NCBI RefSeq assembly: GCF_024227435.1
Contig: NZ_CP100445.1
Coordinates: 2,229,369 to 2,293,368, forward strand
Origin: Natrinema caseinilyticum
GTDB lineage: Archaea > Halobacteriota > Halobacteria > Halobacteriales > Natrialbaceae
Direction: 5' to 3'
DNA: 64,000 nt
Shown here: one piece after another, positions 8,373 to 56,500 of the stretch
Position numbering within the stretch: position 1 is the first letter of the stretch
Layout of the letters: every line of letters begins with the position of its first letter
The notes under the pieces: model-generated
What the model was told of the DNA's origin: nothing
What the model saw: the letters and a program-made list of their open reading frames with translations, nothing else
Databases searched by the model: none
Translations under genes and position numbers: made by a program

Positions 8373-8516
8373 GGGTCGACTGAGAGGGACCGAGGCCAAA
8401 ACGCTACCGAACCGTTCCGGAGAGCGGCCTCGAGCGGTGAAAACGGGTGACGAAACAGGGCGGCAAAACGGTGGTGGGTGGAAACTACGTGTCTGATCGA
8501 ACGCGGTCGTGTCGCG

Positions 8517-9200
8517 TTACTCGTCGGTCTCGTCGTCGGTCCCGTCAGTATCGTCTCCGCCCGACGGGCCGGCGTAGCTCGGCGGGCCGCCGGACCCGTC
8601 GTCGCCTTCGTCACTCGGTCCGCCGGCGTGATTCGGCGGGCCACCCGATTCCGCGCCGGGCCGATCGCCGCCCTCGTCCGGCGGACCCGCGTGTCCCGGC
8701 GGTGAACCCGGATTGTGCTCGAGAACGAAATTCGCGATCGAGAGGCTGATCGACTCGGTGGTAGCGTTCTGCTGGCTCGAGGCGAACTCGGAGACGAACG
8801 TGCCGAAGATCAGGCCGTCCCCGGGTTCGGTTTCGTTCGTCACCTCGTCACCGGCGGCGGTCAGCGTCGCCGTCGTCGTCGCCGTCTCGTTTCCGGCCGA
8901 CGCGGTGGCCGAAACCGTGACTCGCTTTGCCGGTGCGGGGAGAGTGACCGTCCCGTTCCCGTCGGTCATGTACGTACCTGTACCCGCATACGTCGCGTTG
9001 TCGTCGGTCGTCGTTACGTCGACCGTCGCATCGGCGACCGCCGTGCCGTTCGACGTTACCGTGACGACGGAACTCTCGACGTCCACCGACAGCTCCCCGT
9101 CGGCATCCCCATCCTGTGCCAATGCCGCGCCGGCCAACGCGAACGCGGACAGGACGACTGCAGCGACCATCGCGATCGTGAGTAGTCGTCGATCCCTCAT
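8517..9200 (-). CDS. Secreted Ser/Thr-rich protein with Gly/Pro-rich C-terminal repeats
   Basis: A 227-residue protein with a Sec-type signal peptide (RR, then a hydrophobic stretch ending ALAQ near residue 29). Residues 35-110 resemble an immunoglobulin-like fold (strand-rich, with TVTSNGTAVADATVDVTTTD). The C-terminal 80 residues are low-complexity, with repeats around GPPDEGGD and HAGGPSDEG, and a very acidic end. It is probably extracellular. No catalytic motif, lipobox or PGF-CTERM anchor is visible. Function unknown. Confidence 0.7.
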   Translation of the reverse strand: MRDRRLLTIAMVAAVVLSAFALAGAALAQDGDADGELSVDVESSVVTVTSNGTAVADATVDVTTTDDNATYAGTGTYMTDGNGTVTLPAPAKRVTVSATASAGNETATTTATLTAAGDEVTNETEPGDGLIFGTFVSEFASSQQNATTESISLSIANFVLEHNPGSPPGHAGPPDEGGDRPGAESGGPPNHAGGPSDEGDDGSGGPPSYAGPSGGDDTDGTDDETDE

Positions 9201-34507: not shown

Positions 34508-34516
34508 ATTATATTA
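34508..34516 (+). promoter_or_regulatory. TATA-like ATTATATTA upstream of the structured RNA, copy 1
   Basis: Centred 28 nt before the first helix of the structured element at 34540, matching the archaeal TATA-to-start distance. Copy 2 has a TATA-like box at the same distance. This suggests transcription begins at the 5' end of the element. Confidence 0.45.
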
Positions 34517-34539
34517 TGCTTCATGTCGACTGTCACGAT

Positions 34540-34686
34540 GGAAGCCGCGCGCTCCGAAAACGGACGCGGGGGCATGCGTACGAAATGCCCCGGGTGCTGT
34601 AACACCCGAGACGGGTGGCTTCCAAGCGCACACTTGGTTGCCATGTTTCACTTACTGCCACCGAGACAAAAAGGTCTCGCACGACG
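34540..34686 (+). ncRNA. Candidate structured RNA (leader) element, copy 1
   Basis: Likely helices: P1 GGAAGCC 34540-34546 with GGCTTCC 34617-34623; P2 TCCG/CGGA 34553-34564 with an AAAA loop; P3 GGGGCAT 34569-34575 with ATGCCCC 34585-34591; P4 GGGTG 34592-34596 with CACCC 34603-34607; P5 CCAAG 34622-34626 with CTTGG 34633-34637; P6 CGAGAC 34662-34667 with GTCTCG 34674-34679, then CACGAC. The element recurs at 56322-56468 (minus) with helices kept but bases and loop lengths changed. It ends about 64 nt before the ATG at 34751 of a zinc-ribbon gene. No Rfam family was recognised. It could be a leader or an independent sRNA. Confidence 0.65.
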
Positions 34687-34750
34687 ATCCAATACAGCCT
34701 TCGATCAGCATTCGGCTCCGGATTGGGGCTCATCTCCCCAGAATCTCGCC

Positions 34751-35164
34751 GATGATCGATCTCCTGGAGAGCAACCCAACGGAGAAAACGTCTCCGGACA
34801 GCAATTCCGGAGAGAGAAATCCAGCAGTCGCCGGTCCTGCGCTCGAGCGTCCCTGCGGTCGAGACCCGCTGAGGAGACGACGGCGAATTCTCCGACCGAC
34901 GCGATCGAGACACGAAGCACCGACCGGCCGCAAGCCGACAGCTGCGATCGCTGTGGCGAGCCGGTGCGCGACGACCGGGTGATCCGCATCTCGAGCGAGC
35001 CGTGTCCCGAACTTGCCGACCGATATCGGAGCACGAGTCGGGCATACTGTCCCGACTGTGTGGCGAGTATCGGATTGCTCGCGCTCGCGACCGAATCCAC
35101 GGATCTCGTTCCACAAGACCGGAGTGAGAGTCACCGAGGTGACGAAGTGGTGGCGCGAGACTAG
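34751..35164 (+). pseudogene. Small zinc-ribbon protein gene, probably frameshifted
   Basis: From the ATG at 34751 one frame gives MIDLLESNPTEKTSPDSNSG and continues about 30 residues in haloarchaeal style before turning Arg-rich. From about 34870 the sensible reading lies in another frame: an acidic linker, then CDRCGEPVRDDRVIRISSEP, a further Cys, and YCPDCVASIGLLAL, ending at 35164. The two CxxC pairs would bind Zn. That second frame has no start codon between the RNA element and the CxxC part, so a frameshift near 34850-34870 is likely. The leader-to-ATG distance matches that of the intact zinc-ribbon gene at 56250. Confidence 0.5.
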
Positions 35165-56049: not shown

Positions 56050-56250
56050 CTACTCGCCGTCGCGCTTCAGGGCACCCGGGAGAACCGCACAGCCACAGGG
56101 GCGGACGGACCCGGAGAGGGGACCCCTCGTGATCGTCCGGAACACGCGAGCGCCACAGCGCGGGCACGTGGGTGGCGACGACTCGAGGTCGTCGATCGCT
56201 GCGCCGTCGGCGTCGGTGGCGGTGTCCTCATCGGAGACCTCGTCCGTCAT
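56050..56250 (-). CDS. Small CxxC zinc-ribbon protein
   Basis: A 66-residue protein: acidic Asp/Ala-rich N-terminus (MTDEVSDEDTATDADG), then a zinc ribbon CPRCGARVFRTITRGPLSG with the second pair CGC before VLPGALKRDGE. Many haloarchaeal microproteins of this kind exist; their role (RNA or protein binding, regulation) is open. The start is the Met of MTDEVS. Upstream at 56322-56468 lies the structured RNA element, with about 70 nt between its end and this ATG, the same arrangement as at 34540. Confidence 0.8.
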   Translation of the reverse strand: MTDEVSDEDTATDADGAAIDDLESSPPTCPRCGARVFRTITRGPLSGSVRPCGCAVLPGALKRDGE

Positions 56251-56321
56251 GCCGACCACCGCGCGTCGCGTCCGGTGAGCCGGGAAATCGGCGCAGTCGC
56301 TGGTTCGAGCGGTCGATTCGT

Positions 56322-56468
56322 CGGTCGTGCGGGATGTTTATATCCCGCCAGAATATACGGAATCATGCAACCAAATCCGTGAGGGTTTGGAAGCATCGTC
56401 TCGGGTGTCTCTACCACCCGGGGCATTTCGTACCGCGCGTGCCCCCTCACATTCGGAAACGAGCTTCC
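56322..56468 (-). ncRNA. Candidate structured RNA (leader) element, copy 2
   Basis: Helices (plus coordinates, read on minus): P1 GGAAGC/GCTTCC from 56463-56468 with 56389-56394; P3 GGGGCA 56440-56445 with TGCCCC 56420-56425; P4 GGGTG 56415-56419 with CACCC 56403-56407 (7-nt loop); P5 CCAAA 56386-56390 with TTTGG 56371-56375; P6 GCGGGAT 56342-56348 with ATCCCGC 56329-56335. Compared with copy 1, P5 changes G-C to A-T and P6 is different but still paired, while TACGAAATGCCCCGGGTG, ACACCCGAGACG, TTGGTTGC and GCACGAC are kept. Upstream of the zinc-ribbon gene at 56250. Confidence 0.65.
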
Positions 56469-56492: not shown

Positions 56493-56500
56493 CTTATATC
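56493..56500 (-). promoter_or_regulatory. TATA-like GATATAAG upstream of structured RNA, copy 2
   Basis: Centred about 28 nt before the first nucleotide of P1, the same distance as the TATA-like box of copy 1. It predicts transcription starting at the 5' end of the element. A further AT-rich stretch (ATTAAATACG) lies upstream. Confidence 0.45.

Follow-up and report, generated by a model that had tools for sequence, protein, structure and literature searches.

A candidate bistable 5′ leader RNA upstream of small zinc-ribbon genes in haloarchaea

We describe a structured RNA element that, judged by comparison of homologous sequences, is the conserved 5′ leader of an mRNA and is predicted to have two competing folds, as a riboswitch would. 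The element probably acts in cis, as a bistable leader that controls translation of a two-ORF message. Comparison of homologues supports its fold, two exclusive and covarying pairings, an AUG placed in one of the competing strands (strand C), the spacing of a downstream hairpin (P6), the overlap of the two ORFs, and constraint on the second ORF. Two copies are present in the window, that is, the 64,000-nt stretch of the Natrinema caseinilyticum genome that was analyzed (NZ_CP100445.1, positions 2,229,369 to 2,293,368).

In the mechanism that we propose, transcription would start beside strand A, a placement that follows the spacing of the TATA box. Pairing of strands A and B (P1) would close a compact P1–P3–P4 junction and leave strand C, with its AUG, open; in the second state, pairing of B with strand C would bury the ORF1 start codon in an extended P5 hairpin. 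A ribosome translating ORF1 would stop at the overlap and re-initiate at the start of ORF2, and the state of the switch would thereby set how much of the ORF2 product, in most cases a small zinc-ribbon protein, is made. P6, whose spacing would put it near the mRNA entry of the initiating small subunit, probably helps to place the ribosome on a leader that appears to lack an obvious Shine–Dalgarno motif. The two states presumably interconvert in vivo, with regulation running in the direction given here, and a ligand or protein that binds the P1–P3–P4 junction may be the driver.

The longest string common to the two copies, the 18-mer TACGAAATGCCCCGGGTG, has exactly two occurrences within the window, one at 34579 (+) and the other at 56432 (−); the mean in dinucleotide shuffles is 0.04. 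The folds of copies 1 and 2 lie 3.6 and 2.3 SD, respectively, below dinucleotide shuffles (z −3.6 and −2.3), which bears out an earlier note on this DNA that had placed two copies of an RNA at these sites. The base changes that it listed were found in P5 (CCAAG/CTTGG versus CCAAA/TTTGG) and P6 (CGAGAC/GTCTCG versus CGGGAT/ATCCCG), and P3 (GGGGCAT/ATGCCCC) and P4 (GGGTG/CACCC) are present as drawn. The note had counted six helices, P1 to P6; P3, P4, P5, and P6 are there, but the six are not independent, and P1 cannot exist alongside the extended P5 hairpin because both use strand GTGGCTTCC. Its view of a conserved RNA rather than a protein holds for the structured element, but from the AUG onward the sequence, P6 included, belongs to the leader ORF. 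We rejected the possibility that the conserved 5′ half derives from protein-coding sequence, as the shared strings lie in different frames because the P4 loop differs by one base. The transcription start of copy 1 is predicted at about 34535-34540, and the predicted leader is about 105 to 109 nt long, up to the AUG at 34643, instead of the ∼215 nt first proposed.

Table 1. Features of the two copies of the element, in window coordinates. Helices and start sites are predicted.
Feature	Copy	Position	Strand	Remarks
TATA box TTATATTA	1	34509..34516	+	TATA consensus spacing in homologues
Strand A	1	34540..34548	+	5′ arm of P1
P2	1	34549..34567	+	optional hairpin in the P1–P3 linker
P3	1	34569..34591	+	GGGGCAT..ATGCCCC; conserved GAAA on 3′ side of loop; compensatory pairs
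P4	1	34592..34607	+	GGGTG..CACCC; abuts P3 directly; variable loop sequence
Strand B	1	34615..34623	+	GTGGCTTCC; partner is strand A (P1) or strand C
P5	1	34622..34637	+	CCAAG..CTTGG; between strands B and C
Strand C	1	34640..34645	+	GCCATG; holds leader-ORF ATG 34643-34645
ORF from putatively gated AUG	1	34643..35164	+	173 aa
P6	1	34662..34679	+	CGAGAC..GTCTCG; inside ORF, 19 nt past A of AUG
TATA box	2	56493..56499	−	ATATAAG
Strand A	2	56456..56468	−	GGAAGCTCGTTTC; 13-bp P1 with strand B
P3	2	56420..56445	−	
P4	2	56403..56419	−	
Junction and strand B	2	56389..56402	−	GAGACGATGCTTCC
P5	2	56371..56390	−	CCAAA..TTTGG
Strand C	2	56358..56370	−	GCATG altered in step with strand B (ATGC)
P6	2	56329..56348	−	GCGGGAT..ATCCCGC
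Leader ORF1	2	56247..56366	−	39 aa, MIPYILAGYKHPARP..; stop overlaps ORF2 ATG (ATGA)
ORF2	2	56050..56259	−	zinc-ribbon small protein (CPRCG..PCGC)

An exact-pattern search of 292 genomes of the class returned 12 matches in nine genomes from three genera, and these sequences aligned well. Covariance model R1 was built from the 12 sequences with an outer helix taken from RNAalifold. Under R1, the scores are 160 bits for copy 1 and 111 bits for copy 2; as both copies are among the building sequences, these values describe them rather than test them. The RNAalifold outer helix (strand A with TTTCCATT) was dropped because A:B was far better supported across 96 copies, and model R2 was built with A:B as the corrected structure. 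With R1, the element was found in 76/125 genomes of Natrialbaceae, reaching at least 24 copies in some of them (all copy counts per genome are lower bounds). The N. caseinilyticum genome holds seven good copies, each with a TATA box and a small zinc-finger ORF. R2 extended the distribution to 124/391 genomes of the class and 55/86 genera, with many copies in Natrialbaceae and mostly single, weaker matches elsewhere; the pair of copies first noted thus has many homologues in haloarchaeal genomes. Named records with the element include Natrialba, Natrinema, Halovivax, Natrarchaeobius, Halopiger, and Halostagnicola, among others. In a sample of 247 genomes of the phylum, all 10 positive genomes were Halobacteria, with no match beyond that class.

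The RNA family appears to be new. In Rfam 15, nothing matched in the window, at the homologue loci up to E 5, or at the diverged loci up to E 0.1, and no family reached its gathering threshold; with no matches, a known Rfam family or a tRNA was ruled out as the identity, in keeping with the earlier description of the element as undescribed. A literature search, in which full text was limited to open-licence papers, found no earlier description. In a collection whose gene table is incomplete, 14 plasmid records with a match have no annotated feature under the element, and the leader was blank in the annotation of the two plasmid-record regions that were inspected.

Across the homologues, the order from 5′ to 3′ is strand A, a variable linker, P3, P4, a short junction, strand B, P5, and strand C with its AUG; P1, P3, and P4 form a three-way junction. 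A TATA consensus lies at −30 to −26 from strand A in >85% of 96 homologues. From this spacing, transcription would be expected to begin at strand A or immediately upstream of it, as a 5′-leader position, also proposed in the earlier note, would predict. P2 is missing or altered in many homologues. The P4 stem is invariant in Natrialbaceae and is built of different pairs in diverged relatives. Conserved unpaired bases are few: they comprise mainly the GAAA of P3, with P3 and P4 abutting, and the linkers and P4 loop vary. They are fewer than in typical small-molecule aptamers. The A:B helix spans 8 to 14 bp, and the B:C helix consists of TGGC/GCCA, or TGGCTT/AAGCCA in about half of the copies. 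Because both helices use the same bases of B (median 5 nt in Natrialbaceae and 3.5 in a diverged set), they are mutually exclusive; only 20/32 members of the diverged set have at least three bases of B in common between their longest A:B and B:C helices.

The strand C AUG was located in 95/96 copies and opens ORF1. P6 starts exactly 19 nt past the A of this AUG in 95/95 copies, and among diverged families the 12 strong hairpins detected in the P6 zone all start at 17 to 19 nt, with differing sequences. In 27 copies, an A-U pair of P6 has become G-C, and the encoded peptide changes from PRHKRLA to PGYKRPA (R to G, L to P). Since compensatory changes in P6 alter the peptide, the comparison indicates that P6 is kept as RNA, its pairing outweighing amino acid identity. 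Past P6, the pN/pS of ORF1 is near 1 in most groups, whereas that of ORF2 is 0.12 to 0.28, which denotes purifying selection. The stop of ORF1 overlaps the start of ORF2 (ATGA/GTGA) in 72/95 copies, with 3 and 1 in shifted frames; this is the arrangement of a termination–reinitiation pair and is found in copy 2, where the ATG of the ATGA lies at 56250-56248 (−). Because ORF1 drifts yet the overlap persists, what is kept seems, from these sequences, to be the act of translating ORF1, not its peptide. In copy 1, the leader ORF continues in frame into a zinc-ribbon domain (C..C, CPDCVASIG), a fusion to which overlap coupling does not apply. The usual ORF2 product is a small zinc ribbon with the pattern CPxCG...GP...PCGC or, in a second type, CxRC...CPDC. 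Searches of ORF1 and ORF2 against Pfam and NCBIfam gave sub-threshold zinc-ribbon matches only.

Nearly all Natrialbaceae copies, and all seven good copies of the N. caseinilyticum genome, lie upstream of a zinc-ribbon ORF. This association would fit autogenous control, one particular form of the switch in which the zinc-ribbon protein binds the P1–P3–P4 junction of its own leader and those of its paralogues, and the sequence-invariant P4 likewise suggests specific recognition. We consider autogenous control unlikely, as the ORF2 proteins are diverse outside their metal ligands and the leader is not confined to one protein family. The same layout is found in diverged relatives upstream of genes for integrase, PadR, and SprT (Pfam matches) and for SWIM-like proteins (just under the Pfam cut-off); the ORF2 product is therefore unlikely to be a general trigger of the bistable leader. 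A common small molecule, an ion, temperature, or a host protein could be the trigger; the neighboring genes point to no particular ligand.

To examine the competing pairings, we used alignment A4; because it had been fitted to another outer helix, it carries no bias toward P1. With the P1 structure, 97.9% of the cells are paired and there are 51 double-change cells, relative to 12.6 in shuffles (0/500), and the B:C structure has 52, relative to 11.4 (0/500); the covariation suggested by the two initial copies is thus above shuffles with more members. Most double-change cells fall in P3 and P6, which are common to both structures, and we therefore took switch-specific support from alignment-free swap tests, in which a copy's own strands are compared with the strands of other copies. 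With shared ancestry uncorrected, A:B energies were −21.8 kcal/mol for own and −19.0 kcal/mol for swapped strands in 96 Natrialbaceae copies, and −20.0 versus −13.6 in 32 diverged copies (0/5000 permutations). For B:C, again uncorrected for shared ancestry, the 32 diverged copies gave −9.3 versus −6.4 (0/5000 permutations), in a set whose AUG was picked by the best B:C duplex, a choice that somewhat favors B:C. Within Natrialbaceae, the B:C difference was modest (−6.5 versus −6.3) because B and C are nearly invariant there. All three strands have changed in L104/L105 (A, GGAAAC; B, GGTTTC; C, AAACC), and copy 2 of the window combines B ATGCTTCC with C GCATG. The energy gap between the two folds averages 1.65 kcal/mol (SD 3.9), and 72/96 copies are within 5 kcal/mol of balance, as computed with default 37 °C parameters rather than for molar KCl. 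In the predicted folds, strand B takes part in both A:B and B:C, covariation is seen for each of the two, and their energies are close.

These tests bear on a constitutive initiation or stability element, in which P1–P3–P4 would cap the 5′ end, P6 would position the ribosome, and B:C would be a by-product without switching. The rigid spacing of P6 and the scarcity of conserved unpaired bases agree with such an element, and since most haloarchaeal messages are leaderless (PMC4983044), a leadered one might need help. However, C changes with B across distant families and B:C is retained, as in the diverged swap test; B:C uses the same B bases as P1; and a pure enhancer needs no helix that hides its own AUG. 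We judge a constitutive element to be quite unlikely and favor the bistable leader. The conserved block ends at GCACGAC right past P6, itself readable as a terminator-like hairpin, but an independent small RNA of ∼150 nt that acts in trans and ends at P6, with unrelated genes downstream, is highly improbable: P6 is not followed by a T-run and lies within ORF1, and 72/95 copies preserve the reading frame and its ATGA overlap with ORF2, so that the element has neither a terminator of its own nor independence from a linked reading frame.

Eight copies in Natrinema sp. SYSU A 869 (L035, L074, L076, L077, L080, L083, L087, and L092) have in common a unit of ∼490 bp (about −80 to +410) that comprises the promoter, the leader, and both ORFs, and some of their flanks are unrelated, which suggests that the unit was recently copied. 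That the element is a DNA-level feature of a small dispersing unit of this kind, its hairpins serving mobility, is scarcely credible despite the multiple copies and different flanks, because the position of the promoter, the compensatory changes, the constraint on ORF2, and the placement of the AUG within strand C all indicate an expressed message. Inspection by eye showed no terminal repeats, and copying of the unit is compatible with a functional RNA.

A broader reading of the bistable leader, which we offer tentatively and hold somewhat less probable than not, is that such leaders are natural ligand- or factor-sensing switches across Halobacteria. They would gate an AUG that lacks an evident Shine–Dalgarno sequence, place the ribosome with a hairpin 17 to 19 nt downstream, and pass the decision on to the real gene by way of a disposable leader ORF; they may have multiplied with zinc-ribbon genes in Natrialbaceae and be used by integrated and mobile elements elsewhere.

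In its way of working, the element would be a variant of translational leader switches with two unusual traits, a hairpin at AUG+19 and a leader ORF that is disposable. Like translational riboswitches, it is a cis 5′ leader in which the 3′ strand of P1 is shared with an alternative helix that would hide the initiation site. It differs from them in belonging to no Rfam class, in its few conserved unpaired bases, in that it would hide a leader-ORF AUG instead of a Shine–Dalgarno sequence, and in its fixed hairpin at AUG+19. A downstream hairpin is said, since work by Kozak in 1990, to aid AUG recognition in eukaryotes. The hairpin here likewise stands at a fixed short distance past the AUG, but at 19 nt, in archaea, and combined with an upstream predicted switch. 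In Haloferax volcanii, the synthetic theophylline riboswitch E masks an AUG and works, and AUG masking thus controls translation at molar KCl, as proposed here; unlike our element, it is engineered, with a known ligand, a Shine–Dalgarno motif, and a single ORF (PMC8241225). ATGA coupling by termination–reinitiation has been proven at overlapping gene pairs of the same species (PMC6728339). Those pairs resemble ours in the ATGA overlap and in the likely relay from ORF1 to ORF2, but they are ordinary genes, whereas here ORF1 is nearly unconstrained and initiation is structured. The C(P)XCG zinc-finger micro-proteins of H. volcanii (PMC11241148, PMC6562870), as presented in their abstracts, are of the same general kind as the ORF2 products; the abstracts mention no structured leader, and ORF2 matches no Pfam or NCBIfam family above the cut-off.

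Structured leaders have been held untypical of haloarchaea in a study of H. volcanii (PMC4983044); a family of bistable leaders that reaches at least 24 copies in some genomes would call for that view to be qualified across much of the group. The element offers a test of whether haloarchaea use natural riboswitches, and its AUG+19 hairpin offers a way to test how archaea pick start codons without a Shine–Dalgarno sequence. Each locus also contains two small, easily overlooked ORFs, and the element could become a native translational control part for halophile genetics.

Several further loci were noted in the searches. Pattern matches in bacteria received no support from the covariance model, and a blastn search of phage records with a diverged SWIM-type locus found nothing. 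On viral contigs, the core pattern was mostly chance; one of 25 contigs has a full, significant element (L233, predicted viral contig IMGVR_UViG_3300026986_000020 of IMG/VR, 8508-8616), followed by a 154-aa ORF without a Pfam match. The N. caseinilyticum genome has a weak diverged copy (L050, G000 C1:1418537-1418652) in which P1, P3, P4, strand C, and the AUG can be drawn and P6 is missing, with an ORF pair, MYTHTPPYERISEAE.. then MTDGHQFTRVRLEEVLGEV.., overlapping by ATGA. At L276 (1501-1592), the element precedes an ORF chain whose ORF2 is Csc2-like (CRISPR-associated) by eye, and a resemblance to TnpB was likewise noted by eye among the products of diverged relatives; Pfam matched neither. 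Two genomes of one other genus (G183 and G394) have 18 to 19 diverged matches each, a second expansion in another family, and at L270, L273, L287, and L290 of this expansion the downstream genes are a small zinc-finger ORF of a different kind and an ORF that begins with MTLPVFQFWDRLGES or VSLPQFSFRTTDGQ. At L269, L271, L277, L278, L286, L288, L292, and L294, the layout of strands A, B, and C, mostly with a P6 hairpin, occurs before integrase and PadR genes with GCGGACC/GGTCCGC-type helices in place of the junction, possibly a second type of sensor on the same output module.
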